DNA of 29,256 nt from a virus: the IMG/VR virus record IMGVR_UViG_3300025154_002528, positions 1-29,256 of that record, one strand, 5' to 3'. Position 1 is the stretch's first letter. Each line of letters opens with the position of its first letter. Shown one piece after another: positions 1 to 29,123 of this stretch. The notes under the pieces were generated by a model. It did no database searches and had not been told where the DNA came from. It saw only the letters and a program-made list of their open reading frames with translations. Position numbers and translations under genes: made by a program.

Positions 1-1708
1 CTATCGGATTCTGAACTTTTGACGGGCTTTCTGGATTTTTCCCTTCCAGAGTTTCAGGCGTGATTATCATCTTGCGTCCGTTTTTGTATTTGAAAAACGC
101 CGGGACTCGCAGCATCACTTTGCCTTCCGGCAGAATTTCCGGGAAAACAGTCCCAGCCTCTTTACCTGTCATCGTCTTTTCCTTCCTGTCTGAAATATCA
201 ATCCCCGAAAGTTCCGCTATCAATGAAGGCATCTCGTCAGTCTTCAGAATGATACTGATTGAGTCCTCCATAACATTTATGCTCTCGATCATCAGACGCA
301 TCAATCGGTATTGCTCTGTCGGAAAGAGCATGTCCCAAAGTTCCTCGATATTTCCGAACGCATTGCCGATATCCTGCTCTTCTATTGGTTCCGCTTTGAA
401 ACGGACAAGCTCCTCTTTTATCCCATTGAGCCGTGTCACAAGATTTTTAACAGATTCTATTTTCTCATCTTTTTCGGGCAAATTAGTACCCCTCAATTTG
501 GTAATTTCAGATTGAATGTTATAAATTTCTCTTTCGCATGATTGCTTTTCTATTAGCAACTTCTCCCGTTCGGATGTCTCAAGCTCGCTTGCCTTTGCGA
601 AAGTATGGGCCATCAGGCTCGGAGTCCTGAATACCGCGCCCAGCTGCTGGATAACGGCTTTTTCGACATCCCCGCCGGGAATCCGCTTCAACGGACAGGT
701 ACTGACCGCACGCTTCGAGTCTTTTTGGCAGAAGTAATATGTATAGCGCCGTTTACCGTTTCTGCTGTAAGTCGGAGCCATCGCGCCGCCGCAGTGTCCG
801 CATCTGATGATTCCCCGAAGCGGCGTATTCATTTCGATTTTACTTTTCCGTTTCTGCCCGTGACAACTGTCCTCAAAAATCTGGTGAACCTTATCCCACG
901 CCTTCTGACTTATCATTGCTTCGTGTTCGCCTGGAAAAGTCTTTTCATAATGAGTCACTTTTCCAAGATAAACCGGGCTGTTCAAGACACGGAAGATATG
1001 ACCTGTATTCCACGGCTGGCCTTCATGATGCCTGTCCTTTCTGGAAGTCCATGTCTTTGTCCTGTAACTTTTTTCATTAAGCTCAGCAGCCAGCTTTTTA
1101 GCGGAACCTAATTCAGGATAACGTGCAAAAATATATTTTACGATTTCGGCCTCTTTCTCATTTATTACCAACTTTTTCTTTTCAGAATCGACATCATAAC
1201 CTACAATAGGATAGCCTCCGCAGTACTTACCGCGCCTCTTCGAAGCCGCTATTTTGTCACGGATTCGTTCCGCAATAATTTCCCTTTCATACTGTGCGAA
1301 TGTCATCAGAATATTGAGCATCATTCGCCCTGCCGAATCGGTAGTCTGGATATGCTGTGTAACCGCAACAAAATTCACGTTATACTTGTTGAGATTCTCG
1401 ATAAGTTGGGTAAAATCCAGAAGCGATCTGGAGAGCCTGTCTATCTTGTAAACAACTATGCAATCGATATTTCCAGCTTTGACTTCATTCATTAGATGCC
1501 TCAGAGCCGGACGCTCCATATTGCCTCCTGAGAACCCGCCGTCGTCATATTTTTCGGGCAATGCTATCCAGCCGTTTTCCTTCTGACTGGCGATGTAATT
1601 TTCGGCAGATTCCCGTTGCGCGTCCAATGAGTTAAATTCGAGTTCCAAACCGTCTTCATGGGATTTTCTTGTGTATATACCGCATCTGACAACTTTATCT
1701 CCATTCAT
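1..1708 (-). CDS. Large serine recombinase (phage integrase), C-terminus cut by window edge
   Basis: Site-specific recombinase likely to integrate and excise the element. The frame is open for 569 codons and runs off the left edge. The N-terminal resolvase domain (about residues 1-150) contains IYTRKS with the predicted nucleophile Ser16, the core motif YKIDRLSR near 87-94, and the FAQYEREIIAERI helix near 137-149. A recombinase domain follows (about 165-285), then a zinc ribbon with CGHC (303-306) and cysteines 327 and 338, then a coiled-coil-rich region from about 375 to 440. This order is that of large serine integrases. Start: ATG at 1708 has AAGGG six bases upstream. An ATG at 1714 in the same frame overlaps the TGA of the preceding gene and is the alternative. 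It is the last visible gene of the HARE-HTH/DUF2924 operon. The real 3' end and the attachment site are not visible. Confidence 0.95.
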   Translation of the reverse strand, partial: MNGDKVVRCGIYTRKSHEDGLELEFNSLDAQRESAENYIASQKENGWIALPEKYDDGGFSGGNMERPALRHLMNEVKAGNIDCIVVYKIDRLSRSLLDFTQLIENLNKYNVNFVAVTQHIQTTDSAGRMMLNILMTFAQYEREIIAERIRDKIAASKRRGKYCGGYPIVGYDVDSEKKKLVINEKEAEIVKYIFARYPELGSAKKLAAELNEKSYRTKTWTSRKDRHHEGQPWNTGHIFRVLNSPVYLGKVTHYEKTFPGEHEAMISQKAWDKVHQIFEDSCHGQKRKSKIEMNTPLRGIIRCGHCGGAMAPTYSRNGKRRYTYYFCQKDSKRAVSTCPLKRIPGGDVEKAVIQQLGAVFRTPSLMAHTFAKASELETSEREKLLIEKQSCEREIYNIQSEITKLRGTNLPEKDEKIESVKNLVTRLNGIKEELVRFKAEPIEEQDIGNAFGNIEELWDMLFPTEQYRLMRLMIESINVMEDSISIILKTDEMPSLIAELSGIDISDRKEKTMTGKEAGTVFPEILPEGKVMLRVPAFFKYKNGRKMIITPETLEGKNPESPSKVQNPI

Positions 1709-22513: not shown

Positions 22514-22560
22514 TTCTGGTTGCTGTGCAATACATACAAAACAATTGGAAAAACGGTCTG
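22514..22560 (-). repeat. 47-bp element, copy 1 (late operon, proximal)
   Basis: On the plus strand it begins TTCTGGTTGCTGTGC and ends AAAACGGTCTG. It is identical to copy 2. Read in the direction of the downstream gene it starts CAGACCG and ends ACAGCAACCAGAA, 18 bases before the leader-protein ATG. Inside, TTGTT can pair with AGCAA. Promoter, operator or 5'-leader RNA element are possible. Confidence 0.85.
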
Positions 22561-22610: not shown

Positions 22611-22657
22611 TTCTGGTTGCTGTGCAATACATACAAAACAATTGGAAAAACGGTCTG
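22611..22657 (-). repeat. 47-bp element, copy 2 (late operon, distal)
   Basis: A perfect direct copy of the element at 22514-22560, separated from it by 50 bases of unrelated sequence (period 97). It lies just outside the WYL-gene terminator. Confidence 0.85.
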
Positions 22658-22730: not shown

Positions 22731-23720
22731 TCAGGAGTGAAGTTTGCAGATTTCTTTTGCCGCGATCATGACTTCTTTTCTTATAGATTCGGGTTCGATG
22801 ACCACGGCCTTACCCTGCTGGTATAAAGTCCAGTGTATGAGTTCGGGAATGGTTACGCTTGGAACGTTTAACAAAAACTTTCCGTCATCAAGCCTTTCCA
22901 TCGTCTGCTTTGTATTCAGAGGATTGGTTTCCAGAAAGCTTTTCAATGACTTGTCACAGATTATTTTGACGTTCTCAACTCTTTCAAAGGCGAGGAAATT
23001 GTCCCGGCTTATCTGATTGATGATCTTATCGTCCGGCTCAAAGAACTTGCCCGCTTTTTCAGCAGAGCATATGCGGTGAAGCGCAAAAGTCCTGATCTGA
23101 TTTCGTTTGAGACAAAAAGTTTTTACATACCATGAGGAATCGAAGAAAACCAATGCATGCGGTTCTACCCGTCTTTCGCTTCTGGCGCCATCGACCGCTT
23201 CGTAAACGATATCGACAGCCTCGTGATCGCGCCAGCACTCGAACAGGGTCATGAACATATTTGCATTGATGGAGACATTCAGCCCGGCAAAAACAGTCAG
23301 GGACTTGACGAACGCATTGTCGAGAAAGTCGGGATTATTGGTGGAAAGTTGAAAGTCGACCGCAGCTCGGATGCGGCTTCTCAAAGGTTCCGGGAAGATT
23401 TCTTCGGCTATTCTCGCACCGAGTACGGAAGCAAGCATCTCATTTTCGTCAAGAACTGCCGGACATGAAAAGTTCCATCCATGATGCTTAAGGTAGTAAC
23501 CGTTCTTTTTTCTGTCGAAGCCCAGCGGGCAGTTAAACTCGTCCGCAAGTGCTTTCATATCGCGCTTCACCGTTTCTTTCGAACACGCGATATTCAGTCC
23601 GTGGAGTTCTTCCATTTTGCTGAATTCCTTTACAAGCGAAGCACTGTTTGGATAACGGTTTTCCTTGAGCAGCGAAACGATCCGCGTAAGCCGGTGGAGC
23701 TGTTTTTTATTGAATCCCAT
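22731..23720 (-). CDS. WYL-domain transcriptional regulator
   Basis: A 329-residue regulator. The N-terminal winged helix-turn-helix is KKQLHRLTRIVSLLKENRYPNSASLVKEFS...CSKETVKRDMKALADEFNCPLGFDRKKNGYYL. The WYL domain is at about 160-230, with VDIVYEAVDGARSERRVEPHALVFFDSSWYVKTFCLKRNQIRTFALHRI. A C-terminal WCX-like region ends VIEPESIRKEVMIAAKEICKL. WYL proteins sense ligands (often nucleic acid or nucleotides), and several (BrxR, CapW) repress phage-defence operons transcribed divergently. Here it is divergent from the ATPase operon, with an operator-like inverted repeat in the 131-bp gap. The ribosome site before ATG 23720 is weak (GGTGA), consistent with low-level repressor synthesis. Confidence 0.92.
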   Translation of the reverse strand: MGFNKKQLHRLTRIVSLLKENRYPNSASLVKEFSKMEELHGLNIACSKETVKRDMKALADEFNCPLGFDRKKNGYYLKHHGWNFSCPAVLDENEMLASVLGARIAEEIFPEPLRSRIRAAVDFQLSTNNPDFLDNAFVKSLTVFAGLNVSINANMFMTLFECWRDHEAVDIVYEAVDGARSERRVEPHALVFFDSSWYVKTFCLKRNQIRTFALHRICSAEKAGKFFEPDDKIINQISRDNFLAFERVENVKIICDKSLKSFLETNPLNTKQTMERLDDGKFLLNVPSVTIPELIHWTLYQQGKAVVIEPESIRKEVMIAAKEICKLHS

Positions 23721-23743
23721 CTTAAGTCACCATTTTTTTTCGG

Positions 23744-23775
23744 GTGTCATGTTTAGAGGTGTCATATTTTGACAC
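23744..23775. promoter_or_regulatory. GTGTCA operator-like repeats between the divergent genes
   Basis: GTGTCAT occurs at 23744-23750 and again 15 bases on at 23759. The second copy is the left arm of a 17-bp inverted repeat, GTGTCA-TATTT-TGACAC (23759-23775). TTGACA (23769-23774) inside the right arm resembles a -35 box for the plus operon. TATACT at 23787-23792 is a possible -10, but the 12-base spacing to TTGACA is too short, so the exact promoter is uncertain. Likely binding site of the WYL regulator. Confidence 0.6.
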
Positions 23776-23851
23776 TGCATTAAATATATACTGCCTTTGA
23801 TGATAAAAACATGTCATCGGAGTAAAAACTTAAAAAAACGAGGTGCAGAAA

Positions 23852-25735
23852 ATGATGGTAAGTGCAGACCGTTCGTCGCATCAATTGTGCGAACTCTCCG
23901 TAATCGGCGGGTTCCTTGACGGCGTGAAATTCGATTTTTCACAGGGGCTGAACTGTATAATCGGAGCCAGAGGAACGGGCAAGACAACAGCTTTGGAATT
24001 AATCCGTTACGCGATGGGGAAAATGCCTGAAAGTCCGGCAGCAGGCAAACGCCTTGAATCCCTTGTCGACGCCAATCTCAACGGCGGACGTATTGAGCTT
24101 AAAATCAGGACGAAAGACGGATTGAACTATATCGTCAGTCGGGTTTGCGGAGAGGCACCGGTAGTATTGGACACAAGCAGTCAGCCGACCGGACTGACCC
24201 TGAGGAACGGCAGTTTTTTCAAAATCGACGTATACAGCCAGAACGAGGTGGAAAACATGGCGGACGACCCGCTTTCCCAACTGAACCTCATAGATAATTT
24301 CGAACCGGAAAAGCTCTCTGAAATAGAGCGCCAGATACGGAAAGTAAAATCGGACCTGGCATCCAACTCGAACACTCTTATTCCTTTATATGAACGGCGC
24401 AGGATGTTGAACGAGTCAGTTGGGACGCTCCCGGCAATAGAAGAAAAGCTGAAGTCATTCGCTGCGGAAAATGGAGAAAATTCAGAAGAAATAAACAGGG
24501 CGCATGCGCTGAAGGGGCAGCGGGATCGTGAACGAAGAAGCATGGATGCGGGTCATAAACTTCTTGCCGATGCGGAATCGTACATATCCGGCAGCATTCA
24601 CTATATTCATGATAATCTTCAGAACATTTTCTCAAAGGATATCATTACCGGCTGCAATGCTCAGGTCATACAGGATGCAATGTCGGATCTGCTTTCATGC
24701 GGGGAAAACATCGATATGAAAATAAATCAGTTGCGTGGACTGATAAAGGAAACTCTTGAAAAATTATCAGGCCATTCGGCACGGATTGAACACTTGCACA
24801 CACAGCAGGAAATGCAGTTCAGGAGCTTGATAGAAAAGCATCGTGAAAACCAGGACAAGGCAACGGAAAGAATAAAGCTGGAAAAGCGGCGCAATGAACT
24901 TCTTGGAACCAAAAATGAGTTGGGCGAAATAGATAAGAAAATTAAAAACCTTAAAGACGAAAGAACCCTTATGCTTTCAGAACTTTCCTCTCACCGGGAT
25001 AAAAGGTTCCGCCTCAGAGAAATGATAGTTGACAGAATCAACAGCAAACTGATGCCCGCAGTCCGTGTCTCAATAAATCAGTACGGAAACCGGGGGAAAT
25101 ACAGTGATTTTCTTGGGGAATGCCTGAAGAACGGACACATGCAATATCGCAAGCCTGCGGAGAAAATCGCACACGCATTCTGGCCCTCTGATATCGCATC
25201 TGTGATAAGGGAAAAGAAGACCGTAGAACTTATGGAACGAGCAGAATTAAGTGAGAACATGGCAAAACAGGCACTTGAAGCACTTAGAAAAGTTGAAGTT
25301 CTTCACAAGCTTGAGGTAATCGACTTGCCTGACCAGCCGCTGATAGAACTTAACGACCACGGCAACTATAAAACGACCGCATCGCTTTCCACCGGACAGA
25401 AATGCAATACGATCCTGCCGATACTGCTCCTTGACAGCGACAGTCCGCTTTTGATAGACCAGCCGGAAGACAACCTCGATAATGGCTTTGTCCACAACAC
25501 GATAGTCGAAAGCATCTGCAAAATGAAAGGCCGCCGCCAGATGGTATTCGTAACACACAACCCGAATATTCCGGTACTTGGAGATGCCGAGCGTATTTTC
25601 GTGCTTGAGTCGGACGGAACGGTAGCATCAATGCGGAATTCGGGTGGAGTTGATGAGTGCAAGGAGGAAATCGTCTCGCTTCTGGAAGGCGGGGAACAGG
25701 CGTTCAAAAAGCGCAAAGTACGTTATTCATATTAA
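23852..25735 (+). CDS. SMC/TrlF-like ATPase of the defence-like cassette
   Basis: A 627-residue soluble ABC-type ATPase. Walker A is GARGTGKT (38-45, Lys44). A long helical and coiled-coil region of about 300 residues (roughly 155-460; e.g. KATERIKLEKRRNELLGTKNELGEIDKKI) separates it from the ABC signature LSTGQK (512-517), Walker B PLLIDQPEDNLDN (from 532) and the H-loop VFVTHNPNIPVLGDAE. The C-terminal part closely resembles ATPases of the TrlF / Rad50-like defence group. Start: GAGGTG at 23840-23845 points to ATG 23852 (MMVSADRS); a GTG at 23843 lies inside that ribosome site. No PHP, nuclease or other effector domain is seen, so it probably works with the kinase and regulator downstream. 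Confidence 0.9.
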   Translation: MMVSADRSSHQLCELSVIGGFLDGVKFDFSQGLNCIIGARGTGKTTALELIRYAMGKMPESPAAGKRLESLVDANLNGGRIELKIRTKDGLNYIVSRVCGEAPVVLDTSSQPTGLTLRNGSFFKIDVYSQNEVENMADDPLSQLNLIDNFEPEKLSEIERQIRKVKSDLASNSNTLIPLYERRRMLNESVGTLPAIEEKLKSFAAENGENSEEINRAHALKGQRDRERRSMDAGHKLLADAESYISGSIHYIHDNLQNIFSKDIITGCNAQVIQDAMSDLLSCGENIDMKINQLRGLIKETLEKLSGHSARIEHLHTQQEMQFRSLIEKHRENQDKATERIKLEKRRNELLGTKNELGEIDKKIKNLKDERTLMLSELSSHRDKRFRLREMIVDRINSKLMPAVRVSINQYGNRGKYSDFLGECLKNGHMQYRKPAEKIAHAFWPSDIASVIREKKTVELMERAELSENMAKQALEALRKVEVLHKLEVIDLPDQPLIELNDHGNYKTTASLSTGQKCNTILPILLLDSDSPLLIDQPEDNLDNGFVHNTIVESICKMKGRRQMVFVTHNPNIPVLGDAERIFVLESDGTVASMRNSGGVDECKEEIVSLLEGGEQAFKKRKVRYSY

Positions 25736-25751
25736 TATAAGGAAAAGCTCG

Positions 25752-26906
25752 ATGAACGAATTAAAAGGATTTACAGAAAACGATCTGAATGGCCTTGATT
25801 GGCCGGAACGCCGCAAATTTGCCCAGCAGCTCTGCGAACACATAAAGTCCGGTGATAGAAGCGAAGAGCGCCTTCGCCTCTTCGAAAGACTGGCGCTCGA
25901 TCCCAAGTGGGAAGTTCGTCTCGATATTGCACATAATCTGCTGAATATTCCCGAAGAGCGCTTCTGGAAATTAGTCCCGACGCTGGAAAAGGATACAAAC
26001 TCATTTGTTTTGAATGCTCTAAAAAGGGCAGTCAACAAGCTGGCATGCAAAAAGAAGGAGCGGAAAAAGTATGAAAAGAGTCTGGGCTGCATAGACGGAA
26101 TGCGTTTGAAAATCAAAAAGCAGCATGGCCCTGAGGCGGCTGAAAAGGCGTTCCGGATGACCGAGCGGCTTTACGATGTAATGAACGGATCGATTGTTCA
26201 CGATATGCTGGGAATCCTGACTCCGATAAAGTCCGGAGCCGAGACAATAAGCATATGCTTCGATGAAGGATGGGACGATCGGGAAAAAATCGGACGGGCG
26301 TTAAACTCCATGTCAAAATGCATATACCTGATGGAGCGCCTCCTTGGCGACATGCGTTCTTATTCCAAGCAGACGCCGAGGGAAAGAAAAACCGAACGGC
26401 TGATTGATGTCGTAAATGAATCGCACAAACTTGCGTTGGACTTTTTCGAGTCTAAAGACATGGATGTGCACCACATAAGTCTGGGAATAGATATAACGGA
26501 AAATATAACTCTCGATATCGCCCGGCATCAGATCGTCGAGGTATTTTATAATCTCATCAGAAACGCTTATGAATCTTTCGCGACCGGACCCGGATCTTTC
26601 AGGTCTGGCGGAATAAGCGTATCCGCAGAAATAGCGAACGGCAATTCTGTGAGAATTGCAGTTTCGGATAACGGAATGGGCCTTAATGAAGATGAGCTTT
26701 GCCATGTCCGGCGCTTCGTTCCAGGCGGAACTTCCAAAAAAATGACAGGTACCGGATTCGGATTGCCGATTGCCAGAAGGAAGATTTCCGACCATGGCGG
26801 GACATTGGAAATCGACAGCGAAGAAGGAGAAGAAACAACGGTTACGGTTACGCTGCCACTGAAAAACGGGAGGAACGATAATAATGACACATGCTCTGAT
26901 AGTTGA
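25752..26906 (+). CDS. Soluble histidine kinase with N-terminal HEAT-like repeats
   Basis: A 384-residue sensor kinase without membrane segments. Residues about 20-100 form HEAT-like helical repeats (LFERLALDPKWEVRLDIAHNLLNIPEERFWKLVPTLEKDTNSFVLNALKRAV). The phospho-acceptor motif is GSIVHDMLGILTPI with predicted His150. The ATP-binding domain shows the N-box FYNLIRNAYESF (266-276), the G1 box DNGMGL (307-311) and the G2 box GTGFGLPIARRKISDHGGTLEI. ATG 25752 follows AAGGAAAAGCTCG, 16 bases after the ATPase stop. It overlaps the regulator by 23 bases, so translation is probably coupled. A repeat-containing cytosolic kinase would sense an internal cue or partner such as the ATPase (inference). 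Confidence 0.92.
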   Translation: MNELKGFTENDLNGLDWPERRKFAQQLCEHIKSGDRSEERLRLFERLALDPKWEVRLDIAHNLLNIPEERFWKLVPTLEKDTNSFVLNALKRAVNKLACKKKERKKYEKSLGCIDGMRLKIKKQHGPEAAEKAFRMTERLYDVMNGSIVHDMLGILTPIKSGAETISICFDEGWDDREKIGRALNSMSKCIYLMERLLGDMRSYSKQTPRERKTERLIDVVNESHKLALDFFESKDMDVHHISLGIDITENITLDIARHQIVEVFYNLIRNAYESFATGPGSFRSGGISVSAEIANGNSVRIAVSDNGMGLNEDELCHVRRFVPGGTSKKMTGTGFGLPIARRKISDHGGTLEIDSEEGEETTVTVTLPLKNGRNDNNDTCSDS

Positions 26907-27666
26907 CGATTCGCAGCAGATCATCGAAGATCTCCGCGACCGCCTGGATTCGCTGGGACACTCTTACGATAACGCGATGTCGCAATTAGAGGCTCTTGAC
27001 CTTTTCAGCCGAAACACATATTCCTATATTCTGCTTGACCTGGAAATCCCTTTTATTTACGGCAAGCCAAGCAGGATACAAAACGGAAAAAACACGCTTG
27101 AATCCATAAGAAAAAGCGAGCGTGGAAGTTCAATTCCAGTAATAGTCATAACAAGCCACGGGCTTGACTCACATAAACTGGTGACTGAAGTCATGCGCTG
27201 CGGCGGAGCAGATGATTTCATGGGAAAACCATTTCCCAATATTGGAGAAACCCTCGAACAAAAAATCATGGACGTTTTGAAACAATACCCGGGAAAGGAG
27301 GAAGTCGTCCCACTATCTGAAAAAGTCGAAACTGAGGCGGTAAATGGGGTCAAGCTTCTCCTTGAGGCCAGGGACGGAAAAGAGTACTGGATATTGAACT
27401 CGTCCCCTCCGAAGCTGCTTTATAAGGCTTCCGCCGGAAAACGCGCGAAAGTGATGCGCGTCATATACGATTTCCAGCACCTTGACCTTATTCCCCATGA
27501 CTATTTTCTGAGTCAATGCGGCTGGAAAGACCACGAGTATTTTCTGAAGGATGAACAGGGCAATTATAATGCCATGCGCGGCCCGATGAAAAACCATCTC
27601 TCCGAAATAAACAAGGCGCTGGGCGCAGATTGGAAAATCGAAAGAGGTGGGATAAGGATCAGATAA
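26884..27666 (+). CDS. Response regulator with unassigned C-terminal domain
   Basis: A 260-residue protein. The receiver domain (1-130) has acidic pocket Asp8-Asp9 (ALIVDDSQQ), the phospho-acceptor Asp52 in YILLDLEIPF, Thr90 (VIVITSHG) and Lys115 (FMGKPF). An insert after Asp52, PFIYGKPSRIQNGKNTLESIRK, is longer than usual. After a linker (about 131-150) comes a 110-residue domain (LLLEARDGKEYWILNSSPPKLLY, MRVIYDFQHLDLIPHDYFLSQCGW, and the end LSEINKALGADWKIERGGIRIR) that could be a winged helix (the end recalls OmpR-type 'G-x-R-I'), or an effector. ATG 26884 follows GGGAGGAACGATAATA. It is the last gene before a strong terminator. Confidence 0.9.
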   Translation: MTHALIVDDSQQIIEDLRDRLDSLGHSYDNAMSQLEALDLFSRNTYSYILLDLEIPFIYGKPSRIQNGKNTLESIRKSERGSSIPVIVITSHGLDSHKLVTEVMRCGGADDFMGKPFPNIGETLEQKIMDVLKQYPGKEEVVPLSEKVETEAVNGVKLLLEARDGKEYWILNSSPPKLLYKASAGKRAKVMRVIYDFQHLDLIPHDYFLSQCGWKDHEYFLKDEQGNYNAMRGPMKNHLSEINKALGADWKIERGGIRIR

Positions 27667-27690: not shown

Positions 27691-27726
27691 GCACGGGGAT
27701 GATTTTTCATCCCCGTGCTTTTTTTT
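27691..27726 (+). terminator. Intrinsic terminator of the ATPase-kinase-regulator operon
   Basis: GCACGGGGATGA (27691-27702) and TCATCCCCGTGC (27707-27718) form a perfect 12-bp stem with loop TTTT, followed by eight T. Confidence 0.95.
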
Positions 27727-27743
27727 ATTTCCTATCCGATATT

Positions 27744-27915
27744 TGTCCCAAACTGTCCCGGATTGTCCCAAATCCTGTCCCGACTGAAGAAAATTCAAAA
27801 ATAATTCAAAAATTTTCAGATTTGTTCTTGAGTTCAAATTAGGCCTTTTTAGTCTTCTAAAACCCTGTTCCGACCTGTCCCGGTTCTGTCCCGACTACTT
27901 GGGACACGCTGTCCC
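27744..27915. other. Iteron-like TGTCCC cluster around an AT-rich stretch (possible replication origin)
   Basis: The 304-base gap between the cassette and the next gene contains TGTCCC at 27744, 27754, 27764 and 27776 (spacing 10, 10 and 12). After about 85 bases it resumes with TGTTCC at 27866 and TGTCCC at 27876, 27887 and 27910. The last is one arm of GGGACA-CGC-TGTCCC (27901-27915). The context of each is roughly Y-TGTCCC-R. The intervening 27782-27860 is AT-rich and holds two tandem copies of AATTCAAAAAT (27792-27813). Helically phased repeats flanking an unwinding-prone region are the layout of an iteron origin. A cooperative operator array is the alternative. Confidence 0.6.
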
Positions 27916-27970
27916 GAATTAAAATAAACTCCAGACAATCAAAACAGGAATTTTAACGAAAGGACATAAC

Positions 27971-28288
27971 GTGAAAAAGAGTGAAGTTTCAGAAGGCGGA
28001 CAAACGCTCATCGCCATCATGCAGAATGTGGGATATGGCCGCATCATGAACCTGAAGATCAGCGGCGGAGATATTTTCCTGACCGAGGACAGCATCTGGG
28101 AGCGGGATGTCAGATTCGGCAAAACCGAAGACAAACACGATTATCCGGGAAACCGTGATTATGAACTGAAAAAGCAGCTTGCCGATTTCTTCAGATACAT
28201 CTCGGGAATCGACGAGGGCGAAATAAGCCGCCTCGAAATACAAGCAGGGCTTCCCAGTCTTATGCGCGAAAGGAGGAAAATAGCCTGA
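27971..28288 (+). CDS. Conserved phage hypothetical protein
   Basis: A 105-residue protein, GTG start with AAAGGACATAAC upstream. The motif IAIMQNVGYGRIMNLKISGGDIF, then DVRFGKTEDK...DYELKKQLADFFRYISGIDEGEISRLEIQAGLP, looks like a compact alpha/beta unit. It resembles short uncharacterised proteins in other prophages and bacteria ('M-x-x-x-x-Y-G-R-I' start and 'I-x-x-G-L-P' end). Its place just after the iteron-like cluster and before the sigma-like gene suggests an early or replication-associated role, not shown by sequence. Confidence 0.7.
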   Translation: MKKSEVSEGGQTLIAIMQNVGYGRIMNLKISGGDIFLTEDSIWERDVRFGKTEDKHDYPGNRDYELKKQLADFFRYISGIDEGEISRLEIQAGLPSLMRERRKIA

Positions 28289-28355
28289 AAAAAGGGTTGG
28301 CTTCCCTCATGAAATAAATAACAGAAATTCGGTATTGGTCAATTAAACCGGCCGC

Positions 28356-28415
28356 AAAGCGGAGGTGATTGAGGATGCCGCCAGAAATGGCGAAATTCAA
28401 TCATCTCCGCTTTTT
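28356..28415 (+). promoter_or_regulatory. Hairpin masking a perfect Shine-Dalgarno, with T-run (riboregulator or attenuator)
   Basis: AAAGCGGAGGTGATTGA (28356-28372) pairs over 17 positions, one of them a G-U wobble, with the arm at 28397-28413. An inner stem CGCCA-GAAA-TGGCG (28379-28392) has a GNRA loop. The left arm contains GGAGGTGATT, the best possible ribosome site, with ATG at 28375 in frame with the sigma-like gene. The right arm ends in five T (28411-28415). The structure could hide the ribosome site or terminate transcription. Confidence 0.65.
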
Positions 28416-28467
28416 CATTGGCGCGTGTCTTCGGCTCCTCCCGGCCATAAGCCAGGAGAAAAAGAAA

Positions 28468-29067
28468 ATGGATACGGATTTTATCCCCGAAAGCATAGAG
28501 TCGAACATCAAGGCGAAGGCACGCATGTTCGTCAAGAAAAATAAACTTGCCGAGGTCGATATAGCAGACATCGAACAGGAACTAAGGATAGTCGTTGTAA
28601 AAGGGCTTCAAAAATATAACCCTGAGCTGGCATCGCCTGATACGTTCTGCGACAGGATCATCAGAAACAAGATCAAGAATCTCGCGAGAAAGCATTACTC
28701 CGAGAAAAACCTGATGATCCTCTATGCCGAACAACTCAAGGAAAACGATCAAGGGAATGCTTCGTCCCGACACAATGCGCTGGAAGAAAGTATGAATGTC
28801 GATTCCGCAATATCATTTCCTTTGCATGTAGCAGATCTCAAGTCCGATATAAACGCATTACTGGACAAAATGCCGGAAGAACTCAGGTCGTTTTGCATGG
28901 AAGCCGCCAAAGGGCTTTCTTTTAATCATATAGCAAGAGAAAAAAAGCTCAGCAAGTTCATGCTTTACAAGAAGTATCTGACCCCCATAAGGAAACTGTG
29001 CCGGAAGTTTTGCCTTCATGAATACCTTGATAAATCCATTGTGCTGAGGGGGCCGTCATGTGTTTAA
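28468..29067 (+). CDS. Sigma-70-family-like RNA polymerase factor
   Basis: A 199-residue protein (230 if started at ATG 28375). A region-2-like segment reads KAKARMFVKKNKLAEVDIADIEQELRIVVVKGLQKYNPELASPDTFCDRIIRNKIKNLARKHY, the usual 'D-I-x-Q-E ... Y-x-P ... F ... I-x-N ... R' pattern. The C-terminal part, LDKMPEELRSFCMEAAKGLSFNHIAREKKLSKFMLYKKYLTPIRKLCRKF, matches a sigma region-4 helix-turn-helix. It may direct RNA polymerase to phage promoters. ATG 28468 follows AGGAGAAAAAGAA. The longer form would use the Shine-Dalgarno hidden in the hairpin at 28356-28413. It ends 9 bases before the third 47-bp element. Confidence 0.75.
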   Translation: MDTDFIPESIESNIKAKARMFVKKNKLAEVDIADIEQELRIVVVKGLQKYNPELASPDTFCDRIIRNKIKNLARKHYSEKNLMILYAEQLKENDQGNASSRHNALEESMNVDSAISFPLHVADLKSDINALLDKMPEELRSFCMEAAKGLSFNHIAREKKLSKFMLYKKYLTPIRKLCRKFCLHEYLDKSIVLRGPSCV

Positions 29068-29076
29068 GCCATAACT

Positions 29077-29123
29077 CAGACCGTTTTCTCAATTGCTTTG
29101 TATGTATTGCACAGCAACCAGAA
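29077..29123 (+). repeat. 47-bp element, copy 3 (before RecE-like gene)
   Basis: An inverted copy of the 22514/22611 element with 3 differences in 47. In the gene direction it starts CAGACCG and ends ACAGCAACCAGAA, 24 bases before the next ATG. One difference turns a T-G pair of the TTGTT/AGCAA stem into C-G (TTGCT), keeping the stem. Confidence 0.85.

Follow-up and report, generated by a model that had tools for sequence, protein, structure and literature searches.

What does a cluster of short, evenly spaced direct repeats do when it precedes the early operon of a phage that also encodes a histidine kinase (HK) and a response regulator (RR)? The question is raised by positions 27744–27915 of a 29,256-nucleotide stretch of viral DNA from IMG/VR (the window, i.e., the whole stretch analysed). 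The window carries portal, head and tail genes (Pfam, PHROGs) together with a large serine recombinase and is, on these grounds, taken to be a temperate phage of Lentisphaeria; its part 22233–29238 matches a contig of the Lentisphaerae MAG GWF2_45_14 without a difference. Late genes are followed by a WYL-domain regulator gene on the minus strand and by the genes for an ATPase, the HK and the RR on the plus strand, a terminator, the repeat array, the gene for the early protein P1, a hairpin and a sigma-like factor:

2–1708, minus strand: large serine recombinase
22731–23720, minus strand: WYL-domain regulator P0003 (Pfam WYL/WCX), divergent from the ATPase gene
23843–25735, plus strand: SMC/TrlF-family-like ATPase (Pfam AAA_23/AAA_21), first gene of the ATPase–HK–RR cassette
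25644–26906, plus strand: soluble HK (HATPase_c, 2e-20)
26884–27666, plus strand: RR (Response_reg, 1.5e-12), the proposed array-binding protein
27691–27718, plus strand: intrinsic terminator (12-bp perfect stem, then T8) that ends the RR gene, immediately before the array
27744–27915: the array as a whole, eight plus-strand TGTYCC sites and one inverted copy, in two groups around an AT-rich spacer
27920–27925, plus strand: -10-like hexamer TAAAAT of the proposed early promoter, at a position relative to the array that is conserved in relatives
27971–28288, plus strand: P1 (105 aa), first gene of the early operon, with homologues that follow an array in 13 loci
28355–28417, plus strand: conserved hairpin, then a T run, separating P1 from the sigma gene (20 consensus pairs, of which 5 show compensatory changes on both sides)
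28369–29067, plus strand: sigma-70-like factor of the early operon (Sigma70_r2, PHROG sigma factor)

The SMC/TrlF-like ATPase, the soluble HK and the RR form a conserved cassette, usually accompanied by the WYL regulator. The ATPase matches a TrlF-family ATPase at 1e-88, which is below the cut-off, and is conserved in six other loci (alignment A4); the hydropathy profile of the kinase contains no transmembrane-grade segment. The true start of the sigma-70-like factor is probably at 28470, and a single-protein scan with this factor found no relatives. Past the end of the window the early operon is known from relatives, where the genes that come next encode a DUF3799 nuclease, a ParB-like protein, an AAA_24 ATPase, DUF669, RusA and a helicase.

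Two further elements lie close to the sigma gene. The hairpin at 28355–28417, aligned over L002, L003, L135–L141 and L153–L155 (alignment A8), looks from its sequence like an attenuator or RNA switch; an Rfam search returned no match, this hairpin included. In many loci a strand further downstream, GACGGCATCCCGACCGCTCC, has two potential pairing partners, the 5' arm and the ribosome-binding site of the sigma gene. A near-identical 47-bp element, CAGACCGTTTT..AATTGTTTTGTATGTATTGCACAG, occurs at 22514–22560 and 22611–22657 on the minus strand and at 29076–29123 on the plus strand, as well as in L002 from 2456; it stands twice before the late operon and once before the nuclease gene, each copy points into genes, and the copies are candidate promoters for the phage sigma factor.

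The array is composed as follows:

27744–27781, plus strand: distal group, four TGTCCC half-sites (27744, 27754, 27764, 27776)
27782–27865: AT-rich spacer of ~84 bp, 27% GC, containing a tandem AATTCAAAAAT pair (27792, 27803)
27866–27892, plus strand: proximal group, TGTTCC at 27866 and TGTCCC at 27876 and 27887
27901–27915: inverted pair GGGACA-CGC-TGTCCC, with the inverted copy at 27901–27906 and a plus-strand TGTCCC at 27910; kept exactly in L002

The start-to-start spacings of the eight plus-strand sites are 10, 10 and 12, then 90, and then 10, 11 and 23, and all eight are in phase at a period of 11 bp (R 0.86; the fit at 10.5 bp is poor, R 0.46). The array thus has the tandem direct repeats on one face, at ~10–11 bp, of an OmpR/PhoB-type operator. 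Its density of eight TGTYCC sites in 172 bp compares with ~26 expected over the whole 29.3 kb on both strands; no other hexamer of the window is as clustered as TGTCCC, and elsewhere in the window there is no stretch with more than two same-strand TGTYCC. The phased-pair count of the intergenic region was reached in none of 200 dinucleotide shuffles. A preliminary description of this DNA had reported the eight sites on one strand in two groups, their helical phasing, the AT-rich stretch with its tandem pair and the terminal palindrome, and these observations hold.

For comparison, homologues of P1 were sought in viral contigs (giving L002), in the class Lentisphaeria and, via the ATPase, in IMG/VR, and the resulting set comprises 13 phage loci sharing P1, the window included; weak P1-like copies (L150, L152) also occur in G034 C92. 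L002 is the closest relative, with 62% identity in P1 and 66% in the RR, and it keeps both TGTCCC groups, the 8-nt gap of the window and the final GGGACACGCTGTCCCGAWTTAAAATAAA. Most of the 13 loci have direct repeats phased at ~11 bp ahead of P1, the word varying between loci (TGTAAGAT, TCGCATAT, GCGTCCC, GTGGCC, CGGCYC, TTGGCNCAC, TTCGACAA, GGTGTTC and GGACATTTC in the relatives); the unsupervised phasing scan is by itself weak for L003, L137, L140, L135 and L136.

The gene next to the array varies as well. The RR gene lies directly upstream of it in the window, and one small gene intervenes in L002. In L135 and L136 the RR is replaced by a related wHTH gene that lacks a receiver and adjoins the array on its upstream side; a WYL, ATPase or kinase gene was not found in either locus. 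In L003, L137–L141, L154 and L155 the cassette is inverted and the WYL gene stands immediately upstream of the array; L153 has the array and no WYL. In L137–L141 and L003 the whole WYL/ATPase–HK–RR block (22731–27666 in the window) has, as one unit, the opposite orientation to that in the window with respect to the array and early operon. More distant ATPase–kinase–RR cassettes, in which the RR C-terminus is unrelated, occur in the viral contigs L156–L161, L164 and L165, and no P1 homologue was found in these.

The receiver of the RR is a clear Response_reg domain with the phospho-site residues DD, D52, T and K intact, and a cognate regulator with a functional-looking receiver is therefore encoded near the array, as for an OmpR/PhoB-type operator. 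In the AlphaFold model (AF2; pLDDT 82, and 89 for the C-terminal domain) the winged-helix-like C-terminal domain comprises three N-terminal strands, alpha1, a strand, alpha2, alpha3 and a final hairpin, which is the OmpR/PhoB order. In the PDB the full-length model has matches to VanR, RpaA and KdpE, largely through the receiver; the isolated C-terminal domain has no fold match in the PDB, and a PDB sequence search with the wHTH profile gave no match. Comparison of this profile with E. coli PhoB, OmpR, PhoP, KdpE and CpxR is collinear and marginal (P 0.0099; the score is reached in none of 100 column shuffles), and pairs PMKNHLSEINKAL of the RR with TVDVHIRRLRKAL of PhoB. The proposal that the RR would work like PhoB is well founded, but its membership in the OmpR/PhoB family is put as likely, because the profile link is marginal and the isolated domain is without a fold match.

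The relation between regulator and array was followed by Mantel tests of the similarity of array words against that of the RR helix alpha3 (15 residues), the repeat words and -10 hexamers having been picked by eye ahead of the tests. Word and helix correlate across the 13 loci (r 0.48, P=0.0002) and across 11 independent loci (r 0.38, P 0.018). Over the same 11 loci, no correlation with the word was found for the rest of the RR C-terminus (r 0.00, P 0.48) or for P1 (r 0.05, P 0.39), nor for the WYL N-terminus in the eight independent WYL-bearing loci (r 0.05, P 0.44), a subset in which helix alpha3 itself does not reach significance (r 0.26, P 0.14). All four loci with K-N-H in alpha3, i.e., the window, L002 and the distant L139 and L153, carry GTCCC direct repeats. 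Genome G133 harbors two closely related prophages with the words TGTAAGAT and TCGCATAT, whose DNA is mostly 73–100% identical across most of the wHTH gene, 30–73% identical over the recognition half of this gene and over the repeats and AT spacer, and again 93–100% identical at the -10 region; diverged stretches are found also in P1 and in the DNA beyond, and the G133 pair alone is therefore no proof.

In lambdoid immunity types, the operator repeat and the DNA-reading helix change together while the flanks are conserved. Related phages have probably swapped the repeat word together with the RR recognition helix in the same manner. The resemblance lies in the joint change of word and helix between conserved flanks; unlike lambdoid operators, the sites of the array are direct and not palindromic, and an RR with a kinase takes the place of a CI-like repressor.

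The array also keeps its distance from a predicted promoter. Unit 27887 starts 33 bp before the -10-like TAAAAT, with which no -35 consensus is seen, and the same 33 bp separate repeat start and hexamer in L002, L003, L137 and L139 (in the window and L002, the unit nearest to P1 is the last direct repeat preceding the inverted pair). In L135, L136, L138 and L154 the spacing is 31–34 bp with different words; L155, L153 and L141 fit by eye, and L140 is ambiguous. In most loci a site thus lies just upstream of, or over, the -35 position of a predicted promoter with a poor -35 element. A position ~33 bp before the -10 is where an activator contacting sigma region 4 would sit.

We therefore consider it quite probable that the array is a multi-site operator through which a phage OmpR/PhoB-like RR activates the early promoter. 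The preliminary description had mentioned a cooperative array for the RR as an alternative, which helix co-variation and promoter-like spacing now favor. The predicted binding of the RR is well supported by the sequence; activation rather than repression, dependence on phosphorylation and a damage-sensing input signal are what we infer beyond it. The soluble ATPase–kinase pair would phosphorylate the RR, and phosphorylated RR molecules would bind head-to-tail, as PhoB does, on the ~11-bp direct repeats along one DNA face. Unit 27887 (about -45 to -35) would then recruit RNA polymerase to a promoter that has no -35 element, and the activated promoter would drive P1, the phage sigma factor and the recombination genes; the distal group may contribute cooperative binding or looping.

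A rather unlikely variant of this scheme, and the one that fares best among the alternatives, has the RR, perhaps unphosphorylated, keep the early promoter repressed in the lysogen: it would cover the -10/-35 region and loop the two groups together until a signal releases it. In favor of repression, the window carries an additional inverted pair that lies over the promoter, and one unit starts 10 bp before the -10-like hexamer; the two groups flank the ~84-bp AT spacer, and placement and word swapping are immunity-like. However, the promoter looks activator-dependent because it has no -35 consensus, and in most other loci the nearest unit lies 31–34 bp upstream of the -10 without overlapping it. 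Activation is preferred because the placement of the unit suits an activator touching sigma region 4.

The preliminary description had favored an iteron origin. In this reading a phage initiator would bind the repeats, and the AT-rich stretch would serve as the unwinding element. Direct repeats do adjoin AT-rich DNA at the head of a DNA-metabolism operon here, as in the lambda origin within gene O and in plasmid iterons, and TGTCCC arrays occur within replication-initiator genes of unrelated phages, among the matches listed. We nevertheless regard this reading as very unlikely. The word tracks helix alpha3 of the RR and neither P1, WYL nor any replication protein; the units, unlike those of iteron origins, are ~6-bp cores every 10–12 bp at a fixed distance from a -10-like hexamer; and the array is linked to a transcription regulator. 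The tandem AATTCAAAAAT pair, which would be the unwinding repeat, is missing from L002, and a search for a replication initiator recognised none among the flanking proteins (Pfam, PHROGs, NCBIfam), the operon past the window end being seen via relatives.

The hexamer TGTCCC alone is not diagnostic, because a word-only scan of IMG/VR (three TGTCCC at 9–12 bp) returned many unrelated arrays among the matches listed, some in replication-initiator genes and some of them coding repeats (L104). In L016, L086, L064, L007, L100 and others among the matches listed, arrays with 10–12 bp spacing lie within putative replication-initiator/helicase-loader genes (PHROGs) and are reminiscent of in-gene iterons.

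Equally improbable is an operator for the WYL-domain regulator of the same cassette. In L003, L137–L141, L154 and L155 it is the WYL gene that adjoins the array on the upstream side, and proteins with a WYL domain are known to regulate operons for phage defence. In the window, however, this gene is 4 kb away on the opposite strand, arrays are present without WYL in L153, L135 and L136, and WYL similarity fails to track the word; WYL was rejected as the array binder on these last two counts. The WYL/ATPase divergent region moreover has its own repeat, and the regulator P0003 probably regulates the cassette, not the array. That repeat, GGTGTCAT...TGTCATATTTTGACA / GGTGTCAT...GAGGTGTCATATTTTGACAC in the intergenic region 23721–23850, is a possible WYL operator. 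Clustering by chance or composition is practically inconceivable, being contradicted by the shuffles and by the retention of the array in L002 at ~60–66% protein identity.

Among known systems the proposed RR operator comes closest to the Pho boxes. PhoB and PhoP molecules line up head-to-tail on at least two direct repeats of 11 nt and make contact with the sigma subunit, and the box, with the core CTGTCAT in E. coli as compared with CTGTCCC in the phage array, varies between species with the contacting residues (PMC4415409). Operators of this kind (PhoB, the complex operators of S. coelicolor PhoP) share with the array ~11-bp tandem direct repeats, several units per promoter, an adjacent gene for an RR with a receiver and a wHTH-like domain, and the lack of a -35 element. 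Unlike the Pho systems, the present one is phage-encoded and combines an intracellular kinase with an SMC-like ATPase; its array has two groups 90 bp apart and a terminal inverted pair, the word diverges from phage to phage, and the C-terminal fold of the RR lacks a structure-search match.

In the literature searched, no direct precedent was found for a phage that controls its early promoter through a kinase and RR of its own. A phage with a complete two-component system and operators for it on its own early promoter would, if this is true, have an unusual lysis–lysogeny switch. Tentatively, a lineage of temperate Lentisphaeria phages may decide between dormancy and replication by its own intracellular two-component system, in which the ATPase would sense DNA damage or invading DNA and feed the kinase and RR, and in which operator words would diversify with the helix into 'immunity types', replacing a CI/LexA-type switch. 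The helices and repeat words that nature has matched in these phages form a ready-made dataset on how members of this wHTH family recognise DNA, and offer a handle on inducing phages of uncultured Lentisphaeria.
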